Part shown: positions 28,120 to 48,486 of the stretch, one piece after another
Position numbering within the stretch: the stretch's first letter is position 1
How the letters are laid out: each line of letters begins with the position of its first letter
Source of the DNA: Clostridia bacterium
Lineage (GTDB): Bacteria > Bacillota > Clostridia > Oscillospirales > Acutalibacteraceae
Direction: 5' to 3'
Assembly (NCBI GenBank): GCA_017522225.1
Contig: JAFWZR010000008.1
Span: 1 to 48,486, forward strand
DNA length: 48,486 nucleotides
Notes under the pieces: model-generated
What the model was told of the DNA's origin: nothing
The model's database searches: none
The model's input: only the letters and a program-made list of their open reading frames with translations
Made by a program: the position numbers and the translations under genes

Positions 28120-28148
28120 TTGACAATAATACACTGCAGTGGTATAAT
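28120..28148 (+). promoter_or_regulatory. Consensus promoter of the radical SAM operon
   Basis: A perfect match to the primary sigma consensus: TTGACA at 28120-28125, 17 bp, TATAAT at 28143-28148. The spacer contains the 10-bp palindrome CACTGCAGTG at 28132-28141, and the palindrome TTATTCGAATAA at 28148-28159 overlaps the end of the -10 and the start site. Such placement suggests repressor control, since an unregulated promoter of this strength would be very active. Confidence 0.8.
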
Positions 28149-28159
28149 TATTCGAATAA
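28132..28159. promoter_or_regulatory. Two palindromic candidate operators
   Basis: CACTGCAGTG (28132-28141) lies in the promoter spacer and TTATTCGAATAA (28148-28159) over the -10 end and +1 region. Both are perfect dyads. Their positions would let a bound dimer block polymerase. No candidate regulator gene is adjacent, so the binding protein is unknown. Confidence 0.4.
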
Positions 28160-28186
28160 GAAGCTTAAAATGGGGAGGTTTAGTAT

Positions 28187-30106
28187 ATGAAGAATATTTA
28201 TTTTGTACAGGTTGATGTTTCATCAAGCTCAAACTCTCAGAATGCATATTTACCGTATACTGCCGGTATTCTTGTTGCGTCCGCTTTCACAAGTGAAACC
28301 GTAAGGCAGAACTGTGAATTCAAGGAATTTATTTTTATGCGCGAGGACGCAGACGAAGTTGTTTCCCGCCTTAAAAATCCGTCATTTGTCGGCTTTTCGA
28401 GCTATTGCTGGAGCACAGAATACAACAAGCTTCTCGCAAGTAAGATAAAAGAAAAATATCCCGACTGTCTTATTGTTTTCGGCGGTCACGATATCCCCGA
28501 TAACTTTGATATGCTCAACGATTATAAGTTCATCGACGTGCTTTGCCATGGTGAGGGTGAAGATACAATCAGAGAGCTTCTTGAAGCGTATTGCACAAGC
28601 GGAGATCTGAGTGATGTGTGCAACATTTCTTTCCGCGACAGTAACGGTAAAAATATAAGAACACAGTCAAAGCAGCAAACCACCCTTGACTACCCTTCCC
28701 CGTATCTTGAAGGTTGGTTTGACGAGATTGTCGATAACAACCCTGATATAATTTTCAACGCAATTCTTGAAACAAGCCGCGGATGTCCGAACCAGTGTGC
28801 ATATTGCGACTGGGGACTGCTTAAGGCAAAAACAAGAATGTTCCCGTTAGAGCGAATCCGTGAAGAAATCCGTTGGATGGCTGAGCATAAAATCGCTTTT
28901 GTCTGGGGTGCTGATGCAAACTTCGGTCTTTTTGAGCGTGACCTTGAAATTGCCGACGAGCTGGTAGCAGCAAAGAAAAAGTACGGCTATCCCGAAAGAA
29001 TGAGAATGAACTACGCAAAGAACAATTATAAAAACGTCTTTGCGATTGTAGAAAAGTTCAAGGAATGCGAGTTTGACCGTATCGGCGCAACCCTCTCGTT
29101 CCAAAGCCTTTCCCCTGTAGTGCTCAAGAACATCAAGCGCGTTAATTCTTCACTTGATTTTTATAAAAACCTTCTTACCGAATATAACAAAAAGAATATG
29201 AAGACATATTCCGAGCTTATTCTCGGTCTTCCCGGTGAAACCTATGAAAGCTTTATCAAGGGAATCGGCACTCTTTTTGAAATCGGTCAGCACTTTGTTT
29301 TTGAGGTTTACGGCTGTATCCTGCTGCCGAATGCCGCAATGGGACAGAAGGATTACATTGAAGAGCACGGAATCAAAACCGTACGCTCGGAAATTATCCG
29401 TCCGCATTTTAACGACGATGCTTTTACCGTGCCTGAATACAACACCATTATTGTTGAAACAAACACAATGAGCCGTGAGATGTGGGTTAAATCAACTGCA
29501 TTTTACTATATGGTCAAGGCTCTTCACGGTAACGGACTTGTACGTGCTTTTGCTATTTATCTTTTCTACGAGATGGGCATACCGTACGAGCGTTTTTATG
29601 ACGGAATTATTGAGTATTTTGAAAACAATCCCGATCTTTTTATAACAAAGCTTTACTATGACCTTAAGGAAAAGGCAAACGAGCTTTCACTCGGTACAAC
29701 TAACCGTAAGCTTTTATTCAAGCCGTGCGGTGACATTGTATGGGATGACCACGAATATGTTGTGCTTCAGGTATTGGCACAGCTTGACAGATTCTACGAT
29801 GAGATTCTGCCTTATCTCGAAGGCTTCGGTATCAGCAAAGATATTTTTGAAGATTTGCTGAACTATCAGCGCAGCATTATGCGAACACCGCTGAACGAAG
29901 AAAAAACGGTTGAGATGAATTACGACATTCATTCTTACCTTAAAAACATTTACGTAAATAACTATCAGAATTTAGAAAAGCGTACACACACGCTCGTTAT
30001 GAAAGACAGTGACCACATCTCTGACTGGGAAAAATTCGGCAAATTCGTCGTATGGTACGGCAGAATGGGCTGGTCATCGTATAAGGATGATGTCACTGAA
30101 AAATAA
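28187..30106 (+). CDS. B12-binding-domain radical SAM enzyme, family A copy 1
   Basis: The 639-aa protein has an N-terminal Rossmann-like cobalamin-binding domain of the type without DxHxxG (LPYTAGILVASA, VGFSSYCW, DCLIVFGGHDIPD, HGEGEDTIRELL), then the radical SAM core with SRGCPNQCAYCDWG; the iron-sulfur ligands are C200, C204 and C207. Other landmarks are GADANFGLFERDLEIADELV and the glycine-rich SELILGLPGETYESF. A 200-residue C-terminal extension follows. It is the first gene of the operon, 39 nt after the -10, with GGGGAGG before the ATG. Class B radical SAM enzymes usually methylate unactivated carbons or phosphorus or do other radical chemistry. The substrate is unknown. Confidence 0.85.
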   Translation: MKNIYFVQVDVSSSSNSQNAYLPYTAGILVASAFTSETVRQNCEFKEFIFMREDADEVVSRLKNPSFVGFSSYCWSTEYNKLLASKIKEKYPDCLIVFGGHDIPDNFDMLNDYKFIDVLCHGEGEDTIRELLEAYCTSGDLSDVCNISFRDSNGKNIRTQSKQQTTLDYPSPYLEGWFDEIVDNNPDIIFNAILETSRGCPNQCAYCDWGLLKAKTRMFPLERIREEIRWMAEHKIAFVWGADANFGLFERDLEIADELVAAKKKYGYPERMRMNYAKNNYKNVFAIVEKFKECEFDRIGATLSFQSLSPVVLKNIKRVNSSLDFYKNLLTEYNKKNMKTYSELILGLPGETYESFIKGIGTLFEIGQHFVFEVYGCILLPNAAMGQKDYIEEHGIKTVRSEIIRPHFNDDAFTVPEYNTIIVETNTMSREMWVKSTAFYYMVKALHGNGLVRAFAIYLFYEMGIPYERFYDGIIEYFENNPDLFITKLYYDLKEKANELSLGTTNRKLLFKPCGDIVWDDHEYVVLQVLAQLDRFYDEILPYLEGFGISKDIFEDLLNYQRSIMRTPLNEEKTVEMNYDIHSYLKNIYVNNYQNLEKRTHTLVMKDSDHISDWEKFGKFVVWYGRMGWSSYKDDVTEK

Positions 30107-30121
30107 GCAGGAGGAAAGCAG

Positions 30122-32041
30122 ATGAAACAAAAGGTTTATTTTGTGCAGATAGGCGTATCATATCAGTCGCCTTGCTTCCTGCCGTATTCTGTGGGTTGTA
30201 TAGTAGCGTACCTTAAAAACAAGCCTGAAATTATGTCAAACTATGACATCCCCGATATACTTGTTATGCGCGAAAAGATACCCGATATTATCAAGCGCTT
30301 TGACAATCCGTCCTATGTGGCTTTTTCCTGCTACACATGGAACATTGAATATAACAAGGTGCTTGCACAGGAATTAAAAAAGCTTTTCCCTGATGTAAAA
30401 ATTATATTCGGCGGTCACAGTGTACCGTCAGACAGCTCCTTCCTTGACGAGTACCCGTTCATTGATTATCTTATGCACAACGAGGGCGAAGAGACAACTG
30501 CACTCTTCCTTGAGGCACAATTGCACGGTGATGAGCTTTCGGCTGTTCCAAACATTTCTTACAGAACGGCAGACGGCAGCGTCACAACTGAATTCCGCCA
30601 CCCCTGTGACCTTTCAGGTTACCCCTCCCCTTATCTCGAGGGCGTTTTTGACAACATAATGAAAGAATTTCCGACAGTTGAATTCCACGCTACACTGGAA
30701 ACCAACCGCGGATGCCCGTATGGATGCACATACTGTGAATGGTGCTTTACCAGAAAGGTTCGTCCCTTCCCGATGGAACGCATCAGGAAGGAAATCGAAT
30801 GGATTGCAAAAAATCAGATTCGCTATTGCTACTGCGCAGACGCCAACTTCGGTATTCTTGAGCGTGATGTTGAGATTGCGGAATATGTTGTTGAGCAGAA
30901 GAAGCGTTACGGCTATCCTGATGTTTTCAAGCCCTGCTATGCTAAAGAGAGTGATGACACAGTCTTTAAGGCAGGCTATCTGCTTAATAAAAACCATATA
31001 GACAAGGGCGTTACTCTTGCCTACCAGTCACTTGACCCTGATACACTCAGCAACATAGGCAGAAAAAATCTTACACTTGAGCATTTTTCCAGTCTTTATT
31101 CCCGTTACACCGAGGCAGGTATCCCGACCTACACCGAGCTTATTCTTGGCCTTCCCGGTGAGACATACGAGAGCTTCTGCAAGGGTATATGTGAGCTGCT
31201 CGAATCGGGTCAGAACAACTCGATGACGGTATATGAGTGTCAGGTTTATCCGAATGCACGTATAGGCGACCCCGAGTATCAGAAAAAATTCGGAATTAAA
31301 ACATCAAAAATTCCGCTTCTGGGTATTCACTATAACCCCGAATTCAACGGAGTCGGTGAGTATTTTGAAATCATCACCGAAACCGCCTCCATGCCGAAAA
31401 GCGACTGGGTAAAGGCTTGCATGTTCAATGCCGTTTTGCAGACCTTCCACCACCTCGGTCTGCTGAGATATTTTGCTCTTTATCTTCATAAAGAAAAGAA
31501 TATTTCCTACTACGATTTTTACAACAGTCTTTATGATTTTATCTATAAAGAAAGTGACGGATACATCCATTCCTTCTTCAAGGACCTCTATGAGCGTAAG
31601 GCTGACACCGAAAAAGCCGACTGGACATACAGCCGTGATATTTTCGGTACAACAGGCTGGTATTTTGAGGAGGGAGCTTTCCTTGAAATGGTTTATCATT
31701 CTGATGTTTTCTGGCAGGAAATTCTGCCGTTCCTTAAGAAATTTGATATCAATGATAATCTGTTTGAAGAGCTTTTTGTTTATCAGAAAAATCTCGTCCG
31801 TCTTCCCGATGTGGAAGAAATTGAGATAAAATCGCATTATAACTTCTACAAATATTTTGAAGCGATTGATGAGAACATCGATGCTGAATTGAAGAATGTA
31901 AGCTGTACACTGCGTGTCAAGGCGCACAAGCACATTTCATCATGGGCAGAATATGCACGTGAAATCATCTGGTTCGGCAAACGATACAGCGCAACACTTC
32001 TCATAAACCCGAGAGAAGAGATTGAATATTCGGAGGAATAA
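30122..32041 (+). CDS. B12-binding-domain radical SAM enzyme, family A copy 2
   Basis: This is a 639-aa paralogue of the preceding gene, with the same order: VYFVQIGVSYQSPCFLPYSV, IIFGGHSVPSDSS, HNEGEETTALFL, then TNRGCPYGCTYCEWC with Fe-S ligands C198, C202 and C205, CADANFGILERDVEIAEYVV and TELILGLPGETYESF. The extra Cys after the cluster (EWC) is specific to this copy. It begins 15 nt after copy 1 behind an AGGAGG site and ends 2 nt before the family B gene. Substrate specificity probably differs between copies, but that is an inference. Confidence 0.85.
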   Translation: MKQKVYFVQIGVSYQSPCFLPYSVGCIVAYLKNKPEIMSNYDIPDILVMREKIPDIIKRFDNPSYVAFSCYTWNIEYNKVLAQELKKLFPDVKIIFGGHSVPSDSSFLDEYPFIDYLMHNEGEETTALFLEAQLHGDELSAVPNISYRTADGSVTTEFRHPCDLSGYPSPYLEGVFDNIMKEFPTVEFHATLETNRGCPYGCTYCEWCFTRKVRPFPMERIRKEIEWIAKNQIRYCYCADANFGILERDVEIAEYVVEQKKRYGYPDVFKPCYAKESDDTVFKAGYLLNKNHIDKGVTLAYQSLDPDTLSNIGRKNLTLEHFSSLYSRYTEAGIPTYTELILGLPGETYESFCKGICELLESGQNNSMTVYECQVYPNARIGDPEYQKKFGIKTSKIPLLGIHYNPEFNGVGEYFEIITETASMPKSDWVKACMFNAVLQTFHHLGLLRYFALYLHKEKNISYYDFYNSLYDFIYKESDGYIHSFFKDLYERKADTEKADWTYSRDIFGTTGWYFEEGAFLEMVYHSDVFWQEILPFLKKFDINDNLFEELFVYQKNLVRLPDVEEIEIKSHYNFYKYFEAIDENIDAELKNVSCTLRVKAHKHISSWAEYAREIIWFGKRYSATLLINPREEIEYSEE

Positions 32042-32043
32042 GA

Positions 32044-33882
32044 ATGTCAAAAATTCTTCTTATACAACCGCCTCAATGGTATCCTGTTTCCCCTTATCTT
32101 GCTGTTCCGCTTCTTAACGGACAGTTAAAAAAAGCAGGCTTTGATGCGCGTGCGTATGACCTGAATGTAAAATTCTACAACCGTATATTAACTAAAGAAC
32201 ACGCAGCACTCTGTGACGAAAAAAGCCGCAGAATACTGTGTGAGCTTGAGCCTGAATATTGCAATGCAGATATCGGTAAAATAAAGGAACACGGCAGCTA
32301 TGTCGAAAAAACGCGTTGCCTTAAGTATCTTACGATAAAGCAGTTTTATGAGGAATACGGTGACGAAATCCCCGACCTTATCAATTCTGTTGAAGATGCA
32401 GTGCGTATTACAAGGGATAAAAACGACTTCTACATCCCTGAAAAGCTTACGTGGGCAAAGCATATAATTAAGCTTGCTTTGCGCCTTGTTTCGATGCCCT
32501 ATGCACCGAACGAAATTGATTTTGACAATTATTTTTCCAATCCGATTGTTAACCTTGACTGGAAGAACATAAAGCTTCAGGTTGAGGATCCGTCGGTCAA
32601 TATGTTCTGTGACTATTTTGAAGAATTCGTTTCATCCGTCAAGGATGAGGACTTTGACATTATCGCAATTTCGATGACAGACCTGAGTCAGCTTGTTTCT
32701 GTTTTTACGCTGACAAAGATGCTCAAGGCAAGCACGGGTGCAAAAATCGTGCTCGGCGGTAATTATGCAACGCAGATTTATGACCGTATGATGGAATATA
32801 CGGAGATTTTTACCGACTACATAGACTATCTTTTAATCGGTGACGGTGAAACGGCTATTGTCAGCCTAAGCAGTTATCTTGACGGTAAGTGTGACTTCTC
32901 CGAAACATCAAATGTCGTTCGGCTCGGTGAAAACAACGTCGTGGAGTCAACAGGACTTTCCTGCAAAAAAATCAATATGGATGAGCTTGCTTATCCTGAT
33001 TTTTCTGACTACGATATGACCGAGTATTTCACTCCCGACCCCACCTACCCGATTCAGCTTTCCAAGGGCTGCTATTGGGGTAAGTGCAGCTTTTGTGATT
33101 ATCCCTTCGGTCAGCAGGACTACTGCCCGAAACAGATTGACCGTATCATTGATGAAATACAGTATCATATCGACACATATGGTGCTTCAAAGTTTATGTT
33201 TGCAGATGAGGCTATTCCGCCTAAATTCTACAATCAGCTTGCACTCGCCATTATCCGTTCAGGTATGAAAATCAACTTCTATTCCTTTGCCCGTCTTGAG
33301 ACAGGCTACACGCCCGAGGTACTGAAAAACCTTTATGATGCAGGCGCACGGCTTTTCCTCTGGGGTTACGAGTGCTACTCTGAGAGAGTTATGGCTCTGA
33401 TGAACAAGGGTATTGATGTCAGCAAGCGTGAGGAAATACTGACCGATGCACGCAATGCGGGAATATGGAACAACGGACTGTTTATGTTCGGATATCCGAC
33501 AGAAACCCTTGAAGAAACGAAACAGACAATGGATTTCATAAGACGCAACAGAAGAATTGTTCCGAGCTGTACACTGTCTAACTTTGCGCTTAAGAAAAAT
33601 GCAAAATTAGTCGAAAATATCGGTGAAAACGGTGTTGACGGATTTTCAACTGCGGGTGAATTCTATACCGTCTACAAGGATGTTATTGACGGAATTTCAC
33701 AGCTTGACCGCCGTGAATTGCGAAGAAGCTTCCAGTTCTCTTTTTTAGAGGAAAATGCACACTCCCTTTGGTCAGTTGTTTTCTCAGACTTTGACCATTT
33801 GTTATTATATCTGTCCAGATACGGCTGTGACTATGTAAGCTCATACCGTTCGGACAAAAAAATCTGCCCCGAATTCAGGTAA
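32044..33882 (+). CDS. B12-binding-domain radical SAM enzyme, family B copy 1
   Basis: The 612-aa protein starts with MSKILLIQPPQWYPVSPYLA, the first strand of a cobalamin-binding domain. A long helical insertion of about 150 residues follows before the rest of that domain (DIIAISMTDLSQLVSVFTLT, AKIVLGGNYATQI, IGDGETAIVSL). The radical SAM motif is SKGCYWGKCSFCDY with ligands C343, C348 and C351, a CX4CX2C spacing instead of CX3CX2C. MFADEAIPPKFYN and FMFGYPTETLEET mark the rest of the barrel. Separated by 2 nt from the gene before and 6 nt from the next. It is clearly distinct from family A. The reaction is unknown. Confidence 0.85.
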   Translation: MSKILLIQPPQWYPVSPYLAVPLLNGQLKKAGFDARAYDLNVKFYNRILTKEHAALCDEKSRRILCELEPEYCNADIGKIKEHGSYVEKTRCLKYLTIKQFYEEYGDEIPDLINSVEDAVRITRDKNDFYIPEKLTWAKHIIKLALRLVSMPYAPNEIDFDNYFSNPIVNLDWKNIKLQVEDPSVNMFCDYFEEFVSSVKDEDFDIIAISMTDLSQLVSVFTLTKMLKASTGAKIVLGGNYATQIYDRMMEYTEIFTDYIDYLLIGDGETAIVSLSSYLDGKCDFSETSNVVRLGENNVVESTGLSCKKINMDELAYPDFSDYDMTEYFTPDPTYPIQLSKGCYWGKCSFCDYPFGQQDYCPKQIDRIIDEIQYHIDTYGASKFMFADEAIPPKFYNQLALAIIRSGMKINFYSFARLETGYTPEVLKNLYDAGARLFLWGYECYSERVMALMNKGIDVSKREEILTDARNAGIWNNGLFMFGYPTETLEETKQTMDFIRRNRRIVPSCTLSNFALKKNAKLVENIGENGVDGFSTAGEFYTVYKDVIDGISQLDRRELRRSFQFSFLEENAHSLWSVVFSDFDHLLLYLSRYGCDYVSSYRSDKKICPEFR

Positions 33883-33888
33883 GATAAA

Positions 33889-34620
33889 ATGAAATTTACT
33901 TCAGTTACAATAATCGTAGGCACTACCAATGAAAAGGAATCCCTTATTACAACGGTAAACACCATTATGGATACCTGTAATGCCGACGACATTGATAAAA
34001 TTCTGCTTGTTAAATCCAAGGACGCATCCGACAATTGCAACAGTGCAATTGCCCTGCTTGAGGAAAAATATCAAGGCAAGGTTTACTCTCTTGAGCAGAC
34101 ACGGCCGTTTGTCGGCGGTGCAATCAGGGACGGCTTTGACACGGTAACCTCGTCCCATACGATGCTTTTACCGTCTGACCTTGCAATAAGTCTTGATTGC
34201 GTCAGCCGTATGATACAGGCAGTCAAGGAAAAGCCTGAGGTTATTTCCAAAACCTCAAGATGGCTTAACAAAGACAGCTTTCACGATTACAATCCGTCAA
34301 GAAAAGTCCTTAACAGGGCGGCACAGATTTTTTTACGGATTCTGTATTCAACCAGGCTTACGGACTTCACAAGTCCCGTGCAGACAGCACCCACACAGGC
34401 GTACAGAGAATCCGCGTGGCAGGAGCTTAACTTTCCGTTTTTACTCGAGATGGTGCTTGTCCCCTTGCGACTGGGATACAGGTTTGAGGAAATACCTGTC
34501 AGCTGCCATGAACGCGAAGAAGGCTTTTCCCGTAACTCAGCACTACAGACTGCACTGTATTTAAAAACCGCTCTGAGAGTGCGTTTTACAAAAAAATCCA
34601 AGCTTACAAAGGAGTCATAA
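33889..34620 (+). CDS. Family 2 glycosyltransferase, DPM1-like
   Basis: The 243-aa protein is a soluble GT-A type glycosyltransferase without membrane helices. It shows SVTIIVGTTNEKESLITTVN in the nucleotide-binding start, IDKILLVKSKDASDN, GGAIRDGFDTVTSSHTMLLP and SDLAISLDCVSRMIQAV, patterned like dolichol-phosphate-mannose-synthase-type GT2 enzymes. The C-terminal LVPLRLGYRFEEIPVSCHER agrees. The canonical DxD is represented weakly (PSDLAIS), so substrate and activity are uncertain. It is embedded between two family B radical SAM genes with 6-nt and 2-nt gaps, so it is part of the same pathway. Confidence 0.75.
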   Translation: MKFTSVTIIVGTTNEKESLITTVNTIMDTCNADDIDKILLVKSKDASDNCNSAIALLEEKYQGKVYSLEQTRPFVGGAIRDGFDTVTSSHTMLLPSDLAISLDCVSRMIQAVKEKPEVISKTSRWLNKDSFHDYNPSRKVLNRAAQIFLRILYSTRLTDFTSPVQTAPTQAYRESAWQELNFPFLLEMVLVPLRLGYRFEEIPVSCHEREEGFSRNSALQTALYLKTALRVRFTKKSKLTKES

Positions 34621-34622
34621 AA

Positions 34623-36434
34623 ATGAAATTTCTTTTTGCTTCAGTACCTCAATGGTATCCGATAAGTCCGTATCTGGCAGGTGCTCTGCTTGTCGGACAG
34701 TTGAGGAATGCAGGTTTTCAGGCAGATTCTTACGATTTCAATATTGACTTCTTTAATGATATCCTTAAAAGCGATTATGTAAAAGAATGCTATAAAAAGG
34801 CAAGTGAAATCGTTTCTGACACATACAGCGAAACGGTTGATGAGTCTTATGGTATTTTTGCAGATAAAATAAAAAAATCCTTCGGGATAAGAAAAAAAGA
34901 AATCGAAAAATACCTGAAATATAATAGTGAAGCGGTCAGCAATGCACTCGAAAGCATTGACGATGCAGTAAAGGTTTATAAAACCAAGGAGGGCTTTTAC
35001 GACCCTGAAAAGCTTTACAGAGCAAAGGATACAATCACAACAGCACTCGACATCGTTTCCGCACCGTATCTTCCGTCAAGAATTATGCTTGACAATTACA
35101 TTGCAAACCCTGTTTTCACTTATGACTTTAATGATGTTGACTTTCAGTGTAAAAACGCTTGTGTTAATATGTTTTTGCCGTATTTTGAAAACAAGCTTAA
35201 GGAAATGGATTTATCCGAATACGGTTTTATCGGACTTTCAATTACAGACCTAAGTCAGATTGTTCCCGGCTTTACACTTGCAAGACTTCTGAAAAAATAC
35301 ACTAACGCAAAGATTTCTTTCGGCGGTAATTTTATTTTTAAAATTGCAGATGATCTTAAGAAGTTCCCGCAGATTTTTGAAGAATACTGCGACTTTCTTC
35401 AAATCGGAGACGGTGAAGCAACATCGGTTGAGATTGCCGAATATATGACAGGTAAGCGCGACATAAACGATGTTCATTCTCTGGTTTACCGTGACGAAAA
35501 TCTTCAGGTCTGCTCCACTCCGAAGGCGCCGTGTCTGAAGCTCGATTCCGTAGCATATCCCGACTTTGACTGTTATGATTTTTCTAAGTATTTCTCACCT
35601 GAGACAGTCATCCCCGTACAGCTCGGCAAGGGTTGCTATTGGGGTAAATGCACATTCTGTGACTTCTACACAGGTCAGCAGAAGTTTGATATGAAGAGTG
35701 TCATCCGTGCAGTTGACGAGGTTGAGTACCTTTCTAAGAAATATAACAGCAAGCTCTTTAATTTTGTTGACGAGGCCGTACCGCCAAAGTTTTACAATGA
35801 GTTTGCAAAGGAAGTTAAAAGAAGAAAGCTTGAAATTTACTATTACTCTTTTGTACGACTTGAAAAGACCTTTACCGCTGAAGTTTTACAGAATCTTTAT
35901 GACTCAGGTGCACGCTTCTTTATGTGGGGCTATGAGGCAGAGTCTGAGAGAGTAATGCAGCTGATAAACAAGGGCATCGACCTGAACCACAGAAAAAGGA
36001 TTCTGCGTGACGCAAAGGATGCAGGCTTGTGGAACCTTTGCACGTTTCTTCTTGGTTATCCGACAGAGACGTGGGAAGAGCTTCAGTCTACAATCGATGT
36101 GATTTATGACCATGAGCTCGTTAACACCTGTACTCCGTCAAACTTCGCACTTAAGAAAAACGCTATACTCAAGGATCACACCGAGGATGTCGGTATAACG
36201 AATTTTACCGATAACGGTGATTTCCATATTTCTTACAAGTACCTTTCCGAAACACAGACAATGGAAGAGGTTAAAACCAAGCGTAACAACTTTGAGAAGA
36301 AATATCTGGAAGATACACGCGACCGCCTTTTTGCACACTCATTTACGGAAAGCGACTCTATTCTTCTGTATCTTGTAAAATACGGACGCGATTATGTTAA
36401 GGATTACCGTCTGGAATACAAGCGAAAAGTATAA
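34623..36434 (+). CDS. B12-binding-domain radical SAM enzyme, family B copy 2
   Basis: The 603-aa paralogue of the gene at 32044 starts MKFLFASVPQWYPISPYLAG and has the same long helical insertion, then GFIGLSITDLSQIVPGFTLA, AKISFGGNFIFKIADDL and IGDGEATSVEIAEY. The Fe-S motif is GKGCYWGKCTFCDF with C338, C343 and C346 (CX4CX2C). FVDEAVPPKFYNEF, MWGYEAESERVMQLINKGID and LLGYPTETWEELQ match copy 1 closely. It is the last gene of the operon and is followed by a strong terminator shared with the convergent fifth radical SAM gene. Confidence 0.85.
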   Translation: MKFLFASVPQWYPISPYLAGALLVGQLRNAGFQADSYDFNIDFFNDILKSDYVKECYKKASEIVSDTYSETVDESYGIFADKIKKSFGIRKKEIEKYLKYNSEAVSNALESIDDAVKVYKTKEGFYDPEKLYRAKDTITTALDIVSAPYLPSRIMLDNYIANPVFTYDFNDVDFQCKNACVNMFLPYFENKLKEMDLSEYGFIGLSITDLSQIVPGFTLARLLKKYTNAKISFGGNFIFKIADDLKKFPQIFEEYCDFLQIGDGEATSVEIAEYMTGKRDINDVHSLVYRDENLQVCSTPKAPCLKLDSVAYPDFDCYDFSKYFSPETVIPVQLGKGCYWGKCTFCDFYTGQQKFDMKSVIRAVDEVEYLSKKYNSKLFNFVDEAVPPKFYNEFAKEVKRRKLEIYYYSFVRLEKTFTAEVLQNLYDSGARFFMWGYEAESERVMQLINKGIDLNHRKRILRDAKDAGLWNLCTFLLGYPTETWEELQSTIDVIYDHELVNTCTPSNFALKKNAILKDHTEDVGITNFTDNGDFHISYKYLSETQTMEEVKTKRNNFEKKYLEDTRDRLFAHSFTESDSILLYLVKYGRDYVKDYRLEYKRKV

Positions 36435-36467
36435 AAAAGAAATCGGCTTACCGCCGATTTCTTTTTT
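36433..36467 (+). terminator. Bidirectional terminator of the radical SAM cluster
   Basis: The 9-bp core stem GAAATCGGC/GCCGATTTC with a TTACC loop is flanked by AAAAAA on the left and TTTTTT on the right, so it works in both directions. It lies between the stops of the convergent genes at 34623-36434 and 36472-38394. Confidence 0.93.
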
Positions 36468-36471
36468 GCTT

Positions 36472-38394
36472 TTATTCAGTTGTTACTTCAATTTCATCAA
36501 GATAGATATTGCGGCTGTCTTTTCTACTGTACCACAGAACATACCGTGCATAATCCTTCCAGTTGTCATACCTGACTGTTTTTTCAATTCTGTTATGACA
36601 TCTGACTTTTCTTACGGATGCATCATTACCGCATAAAATATCCGTAAAATAATCCTTGAAATCATATTCGCAGTCAAACTCTATCTCTTGGCAGAAGGGA
36701 AGCTTTACAACATTTTTCTGATACCTGAGCAGATTTTCAAACATCTCATCATTGTCAAAAAATCCGTGCAGAAAGGCTTTGATCTCATCATAGAATTTGT
36801 CAAACTCATAGGCTGTATTCAGGAACGCAAATTCCTCAGGCAGCCAGCCGACATCGCCGAACCGCTTATCAACCCAGACCGTACTGCACTTGCCCTTGAC
36901 AACATCTTCAAACCTGGTTTTCAATTCATAAAAAACTCTGCCGCAGACTGAATCCGGATTTGATGTCATATAATCCATAAACCTGCTGTAAAAATCAGAG
37001 TATTCTATCCCCTTCTCGTGTCTTAAGTAAAGTGCAAAATGAATAAGCAGTCCGTCGTGGTGGAAGCACTGAACGGTTGCAGCATAAAGATTCATTTTTA
37101 TCCAGTCCTCGTGCGACATTGTATTCGTCTTTACAATGAGTCTTGAATACTCCTGAATTTCTTCGCTTGTGTCAACAATCGTGTGCGGCTCACTCAACGG
37201 GATACGCACATATTCGATGCCGTGCTTTTTCATATATTCAGGATTGCCCATAGTCGAGAACGGCAGCCACTCGCAGTTGTGAATGTAAATTGAGCCGTGC
37301 TGACCTGCATTCAGAAGAACATCAACACCGTCAACAAAGCTGTCGTATGTTTCACCCGGCAAGCCGAGAATAAGCTCGGAATAAGTCGCAATACCCGCTT
37401 CGTTATACATATTCAGAAGCGAAGCAAAGGATTCAACGGGGATATTCTTTCGGTGAATGTTCTGAAGCACCTCGTCACTCATTGACTGGAAGGAAAGAGT
37501 TGCGCCCTTATCCATACCGCACTCGTTGAGTTTCTTAGAAATACGGAACACGCGGTCATTACTGTTCTTTGCACTTGATACCTGAAAACGGGAGAGTACC
37601 CCCTCTTCGTTATGCAGACGCACCATTTCATCAACAAATTTTTCATCACGCTCAAACATGCCGAAGTTTGAATCGGCACAGCCGAAGCCGCGGATATTGT
37701 GATCGGAAAGCCACTTTATTTCCTGCATAACCTTTTCCTCAGGGAAAAATCTTATACGGCTGTTGAGGTTTCCCCAGTCACAGTATGCGCATCTGTAAGG
37801 ACATCCTCTGTTGGTTTCAATGATTGTATGAAAGTCTATATGCGGATAATTTTCAAGAATCGAATCGAATACTCCCGTAAGATACGGAGACGGATAATCA
37901 ATTCTTTCGATTTTCTGTGCCCTACTCATCATTACCTTTCCGTTCTCACGGTAGGCAATGTTCGGAACATCATAAAGGCTTGTGTTGTTTTTCAGTGCAA
38001 TCAAAAGCTTGGCGAAAACTTCCTCGCCCTCTCCGTAGCACAGACAGTCGATATACTCTTCCTCTTCAAGTAAGGAGGCATCCGTAGAAATCTGATGTCC
38101 GCCGAAGAAAATAAAGCAATCGGGATATTTTTCTTTTATCTTTTTGGCAAGGACCTTGTTGTATTCGTGATTCCAGATATAATTTGAAAAGCCGAAAAAG
38201 TATGGCTCGTCTTTAATTCGCTCAAACACCTTGTTTACAGGCTCACGGATAAAGATGGGCTCTTTGAAAGAATAAAACCCATCAATTTCGATATTCGATT
38301 TTGCATTTGCGATCAAGGTACCTACGGCATAAGGTAAAAAGGTTGAGTTGCCGTGCAGATAATTGATCTGAGCCAGATAAACATTTTTTAACAT
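36472..38394 (-). CDS. B12-binding-domain radical SAM enzyme, family A copy 3
   Basis: The start is the ATG at 38394 (640 aa) rather than the GTG three codons upstream, because the protein then begins MLKNVYLAQINYLHG, aligned with the other family A N-termini. Order: STFLPYAVGTLIANAKS, FIFFGGHQISTDASLL, YGEGEEVFAKLL, TNRGCPYRCAYCDWG with C198, C202 and C205, GCADSNFGMFERDEKFVDEM and SELILGLPGETYDSF. It is transcribed from the opposite strand, 29 nt behind a PnuC-like transporter gene. Having three family A copies in one locus suggests several related substrates or steps. Confidence 0.83.
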   Translation of the reverse strand: MLKNVYLAQINYLHGNSTFLPYAVGTLIANAKSNIEIDGFYSFKEPIFIREPVNKVFERIKDEPYFFGFSNYIWNHEYNKVLAKKIKEKYPDCFIFFGGHQISTDASLLEEEEYIDCLCYGEGEEVFAKLLIALKNNTSLYDVPNIAYRENGKVMMSRAQKIERIDYPSPYLTGVFDSILENYPHIDFHTIIETNRGCPYRCAYCDWGNLNSRIRFFPEEKVMQEIKWLSDHNIRGFGCADSNFGMFERDEKFVDEMVRLHNEEGVLSRFQVSSAKNSNDRVFRISKKLNECGMDKGATLSFQSMSDEVLQNIHRKNIPVESFASLLNMYNEAGIATYSELILGLPGETYDSFVDGVDVLLNAGQHGSIYIHNCEWLPFSTMGNPEYMKKHGIEYVRIPLSEPHTIVDTSEEIQEYSRLIVKTNTMSHEDWIKMNLYAATVQCFHHDGLLIHFALYLRHEKGIEYSDFYSRFMDYMTSNPDSVCGRVFYELKTRFEDVVKGKCSTVWVDKRFGDVGWLPEEFAFLNTAYEFDKFYDEIKAFLHGFFDNDEMFENLLRYQKNVVKLPFCQEIEFDCEYDFKDYFTDILCGNDASVRKVRCHNRIEKTVRYDNWKDYARYVLWYSRKDSRNIYLDEIEVTTE

Positions 38395-38423
38395 ATTCTT
38401 CACCGATTATAAAAATTAAGGTA

Positions 38424-39128
38424 TCAAACCCCGACAGGCTTCTCTTTACTTTCATTATGCTGATTTGCATAAAGCCTCTTCGCCTCGAAAAATGCAAAAA
38501 CAATGCAGATAAACGAATAAACGGAGAAAATCAGAAACGGTACAGTCTCGGGAGAATCTCCCAGCATCGCTATATACAAGCCTATGCTCAGAATACCGTT
38601 GATAATCATACAGAAGGTATACTCCACAAAGGCAAACATTGTAAGGAACAGTACAAGTATGCCCAGAAGCGTTGTTGCGCTGTCAAGGAAAACATACTCC
38701 GCACCTATCAGCGGCAGCAATGCCCACATTGCACCAAGTACGGCAAAATAACCGACGGTAACAATTGCCCTGTGCTTCCACGACATTTTTCGCAGAACGG
38801 TTGATTGCTTCCATTTGTTCTTATTCCAGCGGATGAATGTAATCATCTGCATCGGGAAAGAAAACAGCAAAGCAGACAGTGCTGAAGCATAGAGATTATA
38901 ATAGACATATACCGCAGTATAAAGCAGAGAGTTTATACTGCCGAGCAGATTGCTGTACCTGTTTACGCGTGACTGCAGAGATGCAATCACAAGTGAGTTG
39001 TACAGCGGTAAAATGCGAAGAAAGCTCTGATTGAAGTAAATTCCCGTAGCAGTGATAAGTACCCCTGTGCAGCCCATCAGAGCATATATGAACATATCTT
39101 TTTCAGATAATTTTGGTTTTACGTTCAA
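38424..39128 (-). CDS. PnuC-family nicotinamide nucleoside transporter
   Basis: The 234-aa membrane protein has about seven hydrophobic segments. The segment IASLQSRVNRYSNLLGSINS and the loop MQMITFIRWNKNKWKQSTVL resemble PnuC. PnuC proteins take up nicotinamide riboside or related vitamins by facilitated diffusion. The start is inferred as TTG at 39128, because GGAGG sits 8 nt upstream and the next Met is already inside the first helix region. It has a TTGAAA-17-TATAAT promoter and is followed 29 nt later by the fifth radical SAM gene, so both are probably co-transcribed. Import of a nucleoside-like cofactor or precursor for the cluster is possible but not shown. Confidence 0.7.
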   Translation of the reverse strand: MNVKPKLSEKDMFIYALMGCTGVLITATGIYFNQSFLRILPLYNSLVIASLQSRVNRYSNLLGSINSLLYTAVYVYYNLYASALSALLFSFPMQMITFIRWNKNKWKQSTVLRKMSWKHRAIVTVGYFAVLGAMWALLPLIGAEYVFLDSATTLLGILVLFLTMFAFVEYTFCMIINGILSIGLYIAMLGDSPETVPFLIFSVYSFICIVFAFFEAKRLYANQHNESKEKPVGV

Positions 39129-39170
39129 AGCAATTTCCTCCGACAGCTTGTGTGGATAATTCTAACGGAT

Positions 39171-39199
39171 ATTATATACTCAAACCGAATAAATTTCAA
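39171..39199 (-). promoter_or_regulatory. Promoter of the pnuC-like / radical SAM pair
   Basis: Minus strand: -35 TTGAAA at 39194-39199, a 17-bp spacer, -10 TATAAT at 39171-39176, about 43 bp before the TTG start. It is close to the divergent promoter at 39217-39245. Confidence 0.75.
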
Positions 39200-45148: not shown

Positions 45149-46618
45149 TTATTTTTTAATATATTTCTTCTTAATTGCAGGAAAGAAATTTGCATAATAT
45201 GCTGTTTTGAGGAACTCGATACCGGCTGAATAAAATGACACTACAAAAGAGATTAGCTCCCCTGTCTTGACGGATTTAACTGCATCTGTAATAACTTTTC
45301 TTGCAAAGCCAAATTTCTTTGTTCCCGGAACATCATCAGCTAAGAAACTTCTCCACATAAAATATGCCCTTATCACCTTTATATCGATATCAGGAATCTC
45401 GGAATAATTATACTCCAGCTTTTCCATCGGACTGGTTTTTAAGATTTCTTCGAGATGTTTCACTTCAGCGTATCTTCCGCTTGCTACCAAAGACTTATAC
45501 AAATCAGATCCGGGAACCACAACAAGGTAATTCAGGTTAATCAGTTTTGTATCCAGCCTGCTTATAAGTTCAACTGTTTTCTTAAGATCATCCGTCGTCT
45601 CACCGGGAAATCCTACAATAAAAGAACCTACGCAGGCAATATCCGCTTCCTTACAAGCGCTGAAAGTATCAATAATTCTATCATATTTAATTTTTTTGTT
45701 GATTTTTTCCAAAATATTGACAGAACCACTTTCAATCCCGAAGAATATCCATCGGCAACCGCATTCATACATATAAGCAAAGTCGTCTTTATCAAACAAA
45801 CCAACCCTTGTCTGACAACCCCAGACAAAATCCAAGTTCAGATTCTTAAGTTGGGTACAGATTTCTCTCATTTCCGCCTTGTTTCGGCACCATAGCTCAT
45901 CTGCAAAATATACGCCATCCATCCCATATGCAGTCACTAAATGCTTGATTTCATCAAGCAATACGCTCAATGGTCTTTTTCTGTATGTACACTTATGAAA
46001 ATCTTTGTTATAGCAAAAAGTACAACTGTGCGGACAGCCTTTTGCTGAATACAGATACAACATTTTCGTACAGCCGTACGAGCTTTGAAAATATTTCGGA
46101 GTGTCTATTAACTCCCAATTAATCGGGGGCAATGCTGCAAGATCAATAAAATCCCTTTCTCCGGTAAAAAACAGCTTATTATCATTACTTCTGACAACGA
46201 GGCCCTTGACTGCAGAAAGCTCAGATTCATTATTTTCAAGACACTCCACAATTTCAAGCCAGGTTTCTTCACCCTCACCGACAGAAACCGCATCAAAGCA
46301 AGAATAATCCATAACAGCCACGCTGATAGCCGATGCAAGCGGTCCACCTACAACAACTGTAATATCTTTCTTTTTCAGTTCTTCACCCAGGAATATAGTA
46401 TCCGAGACAGATTTATACGAAATCATCGAAATGCTCACAACACCCGGATTAAAATCATTAACAATATCCTCCTATTTTGTTTTATCAACTGTACGGTCAT
46501 AAATTTTCACAATATGCCCCTTACTTTCAAGATACGAAGCAATTGAAAGTAAACCTAACGGAGCCGTAACAGATCTTGTGTATTTAGCAGTTGACGGATT
46601 AATAAACAAAACCTTCAT
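45149..46618 (-). pseudogene. B12-type radical SAM gene interrupted by in-frame TAG
   Basis: Reading from the ATG at 46618 (MKVLFINPSTAKYTRSVTAP), one frame runs to 45149 but contains TAG at 46472-46474, after ...YDRTVDKTK. The same frame continues EDIVNDFNPGVVSISMISYK and then a normal class B radical SAM protein: TVVVGGPLASAI, VSVGEGEETWLEIVE, AKGCPHSCTFCYNKDF (C195, C199, C202, canonical spacing) and SFIVGFPGETTDDLKK. Without the stop it would be 489 aa, all domains complete. A natural second start (GTG at 46438) gives only a truncated cobalamin domain and has no ribosome site at the right distance. A nonsense mutation is most likely; stop-codon readthrough or an assembly error are alternatives. 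Confidence 0.75.
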
Positions 46619-46669
46619 AATCAATCCTTGCGAAAAAGTGAGTCTACCAAGAAAGATTAAAATCAAGCG

Positions 46670-47254
46670 TTATATTTTCTTTTTCATCAAGCCGTGCTTG
46701 TTACAATAAATGTACAACACTCCCCTGCCGCGCAGCTGAATACGCGTGTCGGCATTACCTTCCGGATAAAGCTTAACAAACTGTACTCTGTCTGTCGTCA
46801 GATATGCAATAAATGAAATATAGTGGCTCTTGGTCATCTCGTGATTAACGGTTATAAAATGCTCGTCCTCTACTTTTTCAACAGTAATCCGATGTTCGTT
46901 ATCTGCTTCTTCAGCTTCAAGTGCAGGCAAAGTAATTCCGCAGCAGCTGACCGCAACATCGCCCATACTGCGGACAATATTACCGCACAACGGGCAAACA
47001 TAAAATTTTGAACGCAGAATATTTGAAGATACATTCTTGTTTGTGACCGTATTGCCCGACATCAGTTCCATCACCGACACGCCCAGAATCTTTGACAAAG
47101 GCTCAATCAAAGATATGTCAGGCAATCCTTTTGCCGTTTCCCACTTTGAAACAGCCTTACTGCTGACACCCAGCATATCCGCCAATTGTGTTTGTGTAAA
47201 TCTTTTTTTCTCGCGCAGGGTTTTGATTGTCGCACCCGTTATATAATTATCCAT
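46670..47254 (-). CDS. XRE regulator fused to desulfoferrodoxin (superoxide reductase)
   Basis: The start is the ATG at 47254 (194 aa), with AAAGAGGTG upstream; a GTG three codons earlier overlaps that site. Residues 5-65 form an Xre helix-turn-helix (FTQTQLADMLGVSSKAVSKW). Residues about 84-194 are a complete desulfoferrodoxin: the rubredoxin-like centre has C87, C90, C104 and C105, and the superoxide-reductase iron has H121, H138, H144, C184 and H187 (YCNKHGLMK). Both iron sites therefore look intact. It may act as a redox- or superoxide-responsive regulator, or as a DNA-binding superoxide reductase. It lies ahead of the interrupted radical SAM gene on the same strand. Confidence 0.85.
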   Translation of the reverse strand: MDNYITGATIKTLREKKRFTQTQLADMLGVSSKAVSKWETAKGLPDISLIEPLSKILGVSVMELMSGNTVTNKNVSSNILRSKFYVCPLCGNIVRSMGDVAVSCCGITLPALEAEEADNEHRITVEKVEDEHFITVNHEMTKSHYISFIAYLTTDRVQFVKLYPEGNADTRIQLRGRGVLYIYCNKHGLMKKKI

Positions 47255-47276
47255 AGTGTTCACCTCTTTGAAAACA

Positions 47277-47305
47277 ATTATAAAGCTTTGTCAGAAAGAC
47301 TGCAA
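47277..47305 (-). promoter_or_regulatory. Promoter of the HTH-desulfoferrodoxin gene
   Basis: Minus strand: -10 TATAAT at 47277-47282, a 17-bp spacer and a weak -35 TTGCAG at 47300-47305, 22 bp before the ATG. Confidence rests mainly on the -10. Confidence 0.45.
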
Positions 47306-47322
47306 CCTACTCTGCGTAGACA

Positions 47323-47354
47323 CAAAAATCCCCTTGGATTTCTCCAAGGGGATT
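47323..47354 (-). terminator. Terminator after the recombinase gene
   Basis: Minus strand: a 12-bp perfect stem AATCCCCTTGGA / TCCAAGGGGATT with a GAAA loop, followed by TTTTTG. It lies 45 bp after the recombinase stop and separates it from the next gene. Confidence 0.9.
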
Positions 47355-47398
47355 GATTGTTTATTTAGAATGAGTTAAGATCAATCTCTTATTTCATC

Positions 47399-48486
47399 TC
47401 AGCGATAGCTGCCTGTGTCGCAATTCTGCTTGGTTGGCAGTTTACCGCCAACCACAGAAACAGAACTGTTTTTTCTTCTTTTACCCTCGGTTTTCATGTG
47501 AAGAGGGTCATTGGGGTCTCCGTCAAAGCGAAGATACCAGTCGAAGCCGTCTCTCTTTACCACAATTTTCACAACGAAGGCCTCAATCACACTTTCGGGG
47601 ATGTCTTTTTCATCCGCATTTGTGTACTGCTCGAGAGCATACTGAAGCACCGTCAGCTTGTCCTTGTAATCTGTAATTACAGGCTCTTTGTTAAGCTTCA
47701 GCTGAAGCTCCTCGATTTCGGCAGTCAGCTTTGCAATCTCTTCTTTCACCTCGGCAGTTTTCTTTGTGTAGGATTCTTTATCGATTTCCCCCTCTGCCCT
47801 CATATCAATAAAATTACTGAGCTTTGTTCTGTGTCTTTCAACCTCTCTGCACTTTTTCTCTATGATAGCCTCATAATCAACATCATCCTCTTTATCGTCA
47901 ATGTGAGCTTCAAGCATTGAGTTTGCAAGAGCCAGCACCTTGTCCTTTTCAGAAAGATAATTGCGGAAAATATAGTTTGCCATCATCTGCAGCTTCCACT
48001 CGGGAATCATAGGCACACGGCAAATGCCCTCAAGTGGTAAACCCTTTTTCTTTCGGCTTTCATAAGACCCGGTACGCACCGAGTCATAGCACTGATAACC
48101 GATAATGGATTTATCTCCCTCTTTTCTCCAAAGCTTCGTGTTGAATCTGTGACCGCATTCGCAGATAAGGAGCTTTCCCCATACCGTTGTTCTCGGTCTT
48201 TTGCCTGTTGTACTTCTTCTGCCTGTGTTAAGATTTTTCATCTGAGCTGTTTTACTTGCCATAATTAATTGCACCCTTTCAAAGTCTTCTTCAGATATAA
48301 TCGGCTCGTGTCTCCCTTTTACTTGTATCAGTTCAACCTCACCGTAATTCTTAATCTTTTTCTGTGTGAGATAATCGGGAGTATACTCCTTGTGATAGGT
48401 TATGATTCCGCAGTAGAATGTGTTTTTCAGCACGTGGCCTATTACGGTTTCATACCACCTTGTTTTGCCCATAGCAGTTTTTCTGC
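47399..48486 (-). CDS. Large serine recombinase, C-terminal part (partial)
   Basis: The frame is open at the right edge (RKTAMGKTRWYETVIGHVLK...), so only the C-terminal 362 residues are visible; the catalytic resolvase domain with its Ser lies outside. What remains is typical: the recombinase domain NTFYCGIITYHKEYTPDY and HEPIISEEDFERVQLI, a zinc-ribbon region with LLICECGHRFN, GYQCYDSVRTG and GICRVP, and then a long coiled coil (VKEEIAKLTAEIEELQLKLN). Such recombinases move integrative elements and phages, which supports an element boundary near here. Upstream codons are not visible, so whether the gene is intact is unknown. Confidence 0.88.
   Translation of the reverse strand, partial: RKTAMGKTRWYETVIGHVLKNTFYCGIITYHKEYTPDYLTQKKIKNYGEVELIQVKGRHEPIISEEDFERVQLIMASKTAQMKNLNTGRRSTTGKRPRTTVWGKLLICECGHRFNTKLWRKEGDKSIIGYQCYDSVRTGSYESRKKKGLPLEGICRVPMIPEWKLQMMANYIFRNYLSEKDKVLALANSMLEAHIDDKEDDVDYEAIIEKKCREVERHRTKLSNFIDMRAEGEIDKESYTKKTAEVKEEIAKLTAEIEELQLKLNKEPVITDYKDKLTVLQYALEQYTNADEKDIPESVIEAFVVKIVVKRDGFDWYLRFDGDPNDPLHMKTEGKRRKNSSVSVVGGKLPTKQNCDTGSYR

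Follow-up and report, generated by a model that had tools for sequence, protein, structure and literature searches.

What a set of cobalamin (B12)-type radical S-adenosylmethionine (SAM) enzymes, encoded around a single glycosyltransferase, might make is the question raised by a locus on contig JAFWZR010000008.1 of a Clostridia bacterium of the Acutalibacteraceae (assembly GCA_017522225.1). The window, i.e. the whole stretch of DNA that was analysed, comprises positions 1 to 48,486 of this contig. Open reading frame (ORF) calls place five radical SAM genes and one family 2 glycosyltransferase (GT2) gene at 28187–38403, three of the radical SAM genes belonging to one family (A) and two to another (B). 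An earlier note on this DNA had described the same genes and had suggested an undescribed pathway, perhaps the repeated methylation or rearrangement of a sugar- or lipid-linked product. The answer that we reach from genes, homology, conserved residues, gene order and co-occurrence is a prediction with about an even chance of being right: the array may form part of a multi-component glycosylation system that C-methylates a surface sugar. The genes are as follows, in window coordinates.

28187–30106, plus strand: A1, family A B12-dependent radical SAM enzyme, TokK/CysS-like, 639 residues (ORF; TokK match; W75 aligned to TokK Trp76)
30122–32041, plus strand: A2, family A paralogue, 639 residues (ORF; clade of its own, 32 members, one per locus, support 1.0)
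32044–33882, plus strand: B1, family B radical SAM enzyme with CX4CX2C, 612 residues (ORF, Pfam, motif)
33889–34620, plus strand: GT2 glycosyltransferase, dolichyl-phosphate mannose synthase-like, 243 residues (Pfam; profile match to 5mlz)
34623–36434, plus strand: B2, family B paralogue, 603 residues (ORF, Pfam, motif)
36472–38403, minus strand: A3, third family A paralogue, in convergent orientation to the operon, 643 residues (ORF; clade of its own, 17 members, one per locus, support 1.0)
38424–39128, minus strand: PnuC-like membrane transporter, upstream of A3 (Pfam NMN_transporter)

The plus-strand run A1-A2-B1-GT2-B2 has intergenic gaps of 15, 2, 6 and 2 nt. All five radical SAM proteins passed the Pfam Radical_SAM cut-off. 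For the Pfam B12-binding domain (cut-off 32.1 bits), A2, A3 and B1 scored above and A1 below (24.4 bits), and B2 had no reported match. The cluster motif is CX3CX2C in A1–A3 and CX4CX2C in B1 and B2. ORFs, domains and motifs agree with the gene count and the three-to-two division given in the earlier note, and support its two paralogous B12/radical SAM families within one operon. A chance arrangement was ruled out, as the ORFs are long and intact and orthologues occur in the same order elsewhere; A3 also lies convergent behind the operon in two further loci (L076 and L097). Among the five enzymes only general Pfam domains reached their cut-offs and no curated NCBIfam model did so. The outcomes that the note had named as refuting a new pathway, a match to characterized enzymes or an unconserved neighbourhood, are thus absent: no cut-off of a characterized family was reached, and the neighbourhood is kept in relatives.

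The reaction predicted for family A follows from its kinship to TokK and CysS. Against solved structures, a profile built from 20 family A proteins matched TokK (7kdx) at 6.4e-148 over profile positions 3–583 and CysS (9n1b) at 6.7e-82; with A1 alone as the query, TokK was matched at 2.1e-97 over residues 19–569. W75 of A1 corresponds to Trp76 of TokK in the alignment. This tryptophan sits beneath the cobalt in TokK, as does Trp75 in CysS, according to the available part of PMC12846815, and the accessible portion of PMC13331322 places TokK Trp76 likewise. Of the 166 full-length A proteins compared, three encoded in the window and 163 in the 72 loci described below, every one has this tryptophan and all three cysteines of the cluster motif. 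Family A is therefore, as far as homology can tell, a member of the class 1, TokK/CysS-type B12-dependent radical C-methylases, with the same working mode and methyl transfer as its predicted reaction. Because the homology is full-length and the tryptophan under the cobalt is shared, methylation is favoured over rearrangement for family A. Some C-methylases of the TokK/CysS group act iteratively (PMC12846815, in part).

For the GT2 protein, which is short, the Pfam score was 33.8 bits (cut-off 23.3) and a crude hydropathy count gave zero membrane helices. A profile of ten GT2 relatives had dolichyl-phosphate mannose synthase as its top match (5mlz, 2.1e-12), followed by ArnC-type enzymes, which are named as undecaprenyl-phosphate transferases. 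DXD is the full metal motif expected of a GT2 enzyme like dolichyl-phosphate mannose synthase; D97 is invariant (10 of 10), and an Asp two positions before it occurs in none of the ten. The protein resembles enzymes that load sugars on a polyprenyl-phosphate carrier, and loading is its predicted function.

Family B forms a group separate from family A and has no near relative among the solved structures. Of the NCBIfam models, rSAM_ocin_1 (TIGR03975) scored highest for both B1 and B2 (137.9 and 124.7 bits, under the cut-off of 281.85), and PhpK (TIGR04479) scored 99.8 and 89 bits, far under its cut-off of 600. The solved relatives are partial matches (9ccb, 8e-08; OxsB, 2.8e-07; queuine lyase, 5.5e-04). 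The CX4CX2C cysteines are invariant in the 25 aligned family B proteins.

Co-occurrence was examined in 150 genomes of the same taxonomic family using single queries (A1, E ≤ 1e-40, with the best eight candidates per genome scored; GT2, E ≤ 1e-12; B1, E ≤ 1e-40). Matches were found in 15, 14 and seven genomes, respectively, and one genome had at least eight A matches. GT2 was present in 14 of the 15 A-positive genomes and in none of the 135 A-negative genomes (Fisher 8e-19, kinship ignored), which bears out a conserved co-occurrence of A with GT2; the earlier note had named conservation of A, B and GT2 together as support for a pathway. Family B was found in six of the 15, and six of the seven B genomes carry A (Fisher 2e-6). 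In samples that took the best three candidates per genome at E ≤ 1e-120 and included some genomes of the same family, A was found in two of 391 genomes of the class (the window's own and one from another family) and in one of 398 genomes of the phylum (the window's own). Family A is rare outside its own taxonomic family.

GTDB species genomes were also scanned with two short patterns derived from A1 orthologues. This non-exhaustive scan yielded 72 loci, in which A is present by construction; some come from one contig, as do L078 and L130, or from one bin. ORFs were called by simply taking the longest one, a rule by which some genes, such as A2 in L074, were missed. All 72 come from metagenome-assembled or uncultured records, with names ranging from Clostridia-type to one 'Bacillota bacterium', and a ruminant host is named in 32 of the titles. 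At least two A genes were found in 54 loci, at least three B12/radical SAM genes in 42 and family B in 26; the largest array holds nine B12/radical SAM genes. GT2 was recognized in 52 loci (57 by a looser rule), and the exact orthologous order A1-A2-B1-GT-B2 in ten. In L116 (12526–13298) and L136 (15672–16411) the gap between B1 and B2 has the size of a GT2 gene and contains no ORF recognized as one, which may mean a broken gene or a poor assembly.

In a tree of 166 A proteins (FastTree, midpoint root), A1, A2 and A3 fell into separate clades, each with support 1.0. These clades, with one member per locus, number 63, 32 and 17 proteins, the size of the A1 clade being partly due to the A1-based choice of loci; its most distant members are less than 40% identical to A1. 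A2 and A3 are 39–41% identical to A1, and the nearest orthologues of A1 and A2 in other genomes are 78–80% identical. Recent amplification is ruled out by these identities together with the separate clades. The A paralogues are, on this phylogeny, old and apparently kept apart, which suggests different tasks.

A candidate pathway marker lies outside the window. Near the arrays of some relatives there are genes for an HddA-like protein (heptose-7-phosphate kinase), an HddC/GmhB-like fusion and a GmhA-like protein (phosphoheptose isomerase), two families of short-chain dehydrogenases/reductases (SDRs), a sugar-type cupin and a multi-spanning family termed F2; in other relatives a fucokinase/fucose-pyrophosphorylase-like protein is encoded beside the array. 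The window's own genome carries the run SDR, HddC/GmhB-like fusion, HddA-like kinase, SDR, cupin, F2 on another contig (C11), and a genus mate (G063) has the identical run. The HddA-like kinase (E ≤ 1e-30) was found in 12 of the 150 family genomes, namely ten of the 15 A-positive and two of the 135 A-negative ones (Fisher 1.6e-10); in the latter two this cupin is not alongside and the SDR is absent or weak, one of the stretches running into a contig end. The earlier note had seen no known pathway marker, which holds for the stretch that it described and fails for the genome. Sugar-nucleotide or F2 genes were found in the fetched flanks of 29 of the 72 loci and of none of 20 controls (p = 0.0002), where the profiles derive from the array neighbourhoods themselves with score limits set by us, the loci are not independent, and the controls were spaced along long contigs of five hand-picked A-positive genomes rather than drawn at random. 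The idea of an undescribed pathway is retained as regards co-occurrence and a plausibly sugar- or lipid-linked product, and is modified by the heptose-like module, which adjoins the array in some relatives.

Among possible membrane partners, F2 has 6–10 hydrophobic segments in nine proteins, and a YfhO gene lies near the array in L120. Five loci (L115, L127, L129, L131 and L132) encode an Lgt-like membrane protein near the A genes (Pfam LGT 41.7 bits in L131).

Taken together, these components suggest the following scheme. A GDP (guanosine diphosphate)-activated sugar, perhaps a manno-heptose derivative, would be made by the kinase, the phosphatase/nucleotidyltransferase fusion, the SDRs and the cupin encoded elsewhere. 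The GT2 enzyme would transfer the sugar of this donor onto a polyprenyl-phosphate carrier, and the A enzymes would methylate unactivated carbons of the sugar or of a short glycan by means of methylcobalamin and a 5'-deoxyadenosyl radical, as homology leads one to expect; loading and methylation could come in either order. Several A paralogues may correspond to several positions, and family B would add a radical step of unspecified kind. The lipid-linked sugar would then be flipped, and a multi-spanning protein of F2 or YfhO type, perhaps GT-C-type, would pass it to an acceptor at the cell surface. The sugar- or lipid-linked product proposed earlier is thus plausible. A heptose-specific version of surface-sugar methylation is possible, although we would not lean on it. 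We hold with similar reserve, as a tentative extension, the combinatorial C-methylation of a cell-surface glycan in a lineage of gut bacteria: up to nine B12 radical SAM enzymes per locus would modify several unactivated carbons of lipid-carried heptose-type sugars, and family B, whose cluster motif is atypical, would contribute another radical reaction.

Several observations weigh against surface-sugar methylation or its heptose form. The co-occurrence statistics ignore the relatedness of the genomes. The substrates of TokK and CysS are antibiotic precursors (PMC12846815, available part). F2 has no Pfam match. The HddA-, HddC- and GmhA-like proteins fall under the curated cut-offs; in the window's own genome HddA scored 131.6 (cut-off 600), HddC 92.8 (300) and GmhB 158.2 (178). 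For their respective parts HddA and GmhB were the top-scoring named models, and for the nucleotidyltransferase part other models gave higher scores; a GmhB subfamily cut-off was reached by the GmhB part in L109 (150.2 versus 149.6) and missed in L062 and the own genome. Only three of the 150 genomes were found to have a GmhA-like gene; one of the three lacks A, and none was found in the window's own genome, which is 69% complete. No HddA-like match was found in five of the 15 A-positive genomes. Of the 72 loci, only eight have heptose-core genes in their flanks (p = 0.19 against 0 of 20 controls), and 18 have a sugar-nucleotide gene of any kind there (p = 0.0099, again against 0 of 20). Because of the scores under the cut-offs, the rarity of GmhA and the few flank genes, the heptose assignment is weaker than the sugar assignment.

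Three other readings of the array were weighed. The enzymes could tailor a diffusible glycosylated natural product, with TokK-like proteins acting on a small molecule to which GT2 attaches a sugar. TokK and CysS do come from antibiotic pathways, and a homologue on a Sinorhizobium plasmid adjoins genes for adenylation domains; however, among the chosen neighbours that were scanned none of the named scaffold-gene families was found near the arrays, GT2 is like carrier-loading enzymes, and sugar-nucleotide genes co-occur, so that we regard this reading as unlikely. If instead the radical enzymes methylated an acyl or polyprenyl chain and GT2 glycosylated the lipid, the product would be a membrane lipid or glycolipid. 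Weak resemblance to HpnJ, HpnR and a ladderane-type model, all below the cut-offs, and the Lgt-like protein near A in five loci are in keeping with this, but the full-length match of family A is to TokK and CysS and an Lgt-like gene is found in only five of the 72 loci; a lipid product seems quite improbable.

Modification of a peptide or protein, with family B as enzymes of the kind that act on ribosomally synthesized and post-translationally modified peptides (RiPPs), would be suggested by rSAM_ocin_1, a RiPP maturation model, heading the NCBIfam matches of both B proteins. Its cut-off was missed, however, and because the gaps of 2–15 nt leave no space between the operon genes, a precursor-peptide gene is excluded inside the operon (small ORFs outside it were not surveyed). 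Family B, moreover, was found in six of the 15 A-positive genomes versus 14 for GT2. We consider peptide modification very unlikely, and return to methylation of a surface sugar as the preferred reading.

Homologues outside the family were sought in plasmids and viruses. Matches to A1 were found in 14 of 72,556 plasmid records, all less than 60% identical, and no relative of GT2 was confirmed in viral contigs by a single-protein query, which reaches close relatives only; spread by viruses or plasmids is not supported by these results. The best plasmid match is on plasmid p2 of Azospirillum sp. TSA2s (L171), where the family A profile scored 533 bits over nearly the whole length and the neighbouring genes encode glycosyltransferases along with a GDP-mannose 4,6-dehydratase and an NAD-dependent epimerase. 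This solitary family A homologue comes from an alphaproteobacterium of soil and is a possible model. The match on a Streptantibioticus cattleyicolor plasmid is presumably ThnK. Given the GDP-sugar locus of Azospirillum on the one hand and the Sinorhizobium adenylation-domain genes and the Streptantibioticus match on the other, the homologue group thus appears to occur in glycan-like and antibiotic-like contexts alike.

Other features were noted in and around the arrays. The PnuC-like gene scored 58.2 bits with Pfam NMN_transporter (cut-off 27.3) and 31.4 with NCBIfam PnuC (cut-off 42.45), and its link to the radical SAM/GT2 system is uncertain. A cobalamin riboswitch was not found before the operon, no Rfam match being obtained anywhere in the window at gathering cut-offs; two cobalamin riboswitches sit on contig C31 of the same genome. 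The window contains one more B12-type radical SAM gene, the sixth, from a different family (45149–46666, minus strand; about 490 residues, CX3CX2C). It is broken by a single in-frame TAG after 48 codons, and its neighbours (46670–48472, minus strand) are a recombinase-family gene and a gene for a helix-turn-helix regulator whose tail is desulfoferrodoxin-like. Four consecutive B12 radical SAM genes of another family (C), each of about 490 residues, form an array near the A genes in L056 (8803–14925). Inside the arrays of L052 (10905–13474) and L103 (793–3392), an amine-oxidase-like flavoprotein is paired with a 2Fe-2S reductase-like protein, perhaps as a redox partner. Two very large ORFs near arrays had no Pfam match. 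ABC-transporter genes common to 11 to 12 neighbourhoods were discounted as ordinary neighbours.

The products in which radical C-methylation is familiar to us are mainly antibiotics, lipids and individual residues of proteins, and we know of no cell wall with the branched sugars that such arrays would make. By title and start of abstract, the open-licence literature, outside which subscription papers mostly lie, yielded no paper on B12 radical SAM arrays with GT2 and likewise none on radical C-methylation of surface sugars. If the proposal is right, radical C-methylation in arrays would diversify the surface sugars of bacteria in animal guts and tie B12 supply to surface identity, and the old, separately kept paralogues would be a natural set in which to study the choice of carbon by TokK-like enzymes. 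GT2 and the sugar-nucleotide module are testable partners for enzymes without known substrates.

Compared with known systems, family A is closest to TokK, CysS and KedN5, with which it shares the full-length match, the CX3CX2C motif, the B12-binding domain and the tryptophan under the cobalt. It differs in occurring in GT2-linked arrays of paralogues near which no antibiotic scaffold genes were seen among the chosen neighbours scanned, and in missing the KedN5 subfamily cut-off (NF033712, 700 bits; A1–A3 scored 257.2, 233.3 and 235.4). Family B resembles rSAM_ocin_1 and PhpK as weak best NCBIfam matches, and is unlike them in its CX4CX2C motif and in scores far below the cut-offs. GenK, which its partly available source describes as a radical SAM enzyme that C-methylates gentamicin X2 at C-6', would be alike in the radical C-methylation of a sugar proposed here and unlike in acting on a free aminoglycoside rather than a surface sugar; the sequences were not compared. 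For its capsule, Campylobacter jejuni makes and modifies GDP-heptoses with enzymes broadly like those of the sugar-nucleotide module (PMC10680097, available part). The heptose-like kinase, phosphatase/nucleotidyltransferase, SDRs and cupin are similarly gathered in one module here; the differences are the fusion of phosphatase and nucleotidyltransferase, scores that mostly lie below the cut-offs, and the co-occurrence of putative radical methylases. Multi-component transmembrane glycosylation of the CsbB-GtcA-YfhO type (PMC8035078, available part) provides the general scheme: a carrier-loading-type GT2 enzyme and multi-spanning candidate transferases (F2, or YfhO in L120) are common to both, and the locus described here differs in having putative radical methylases in the operon.

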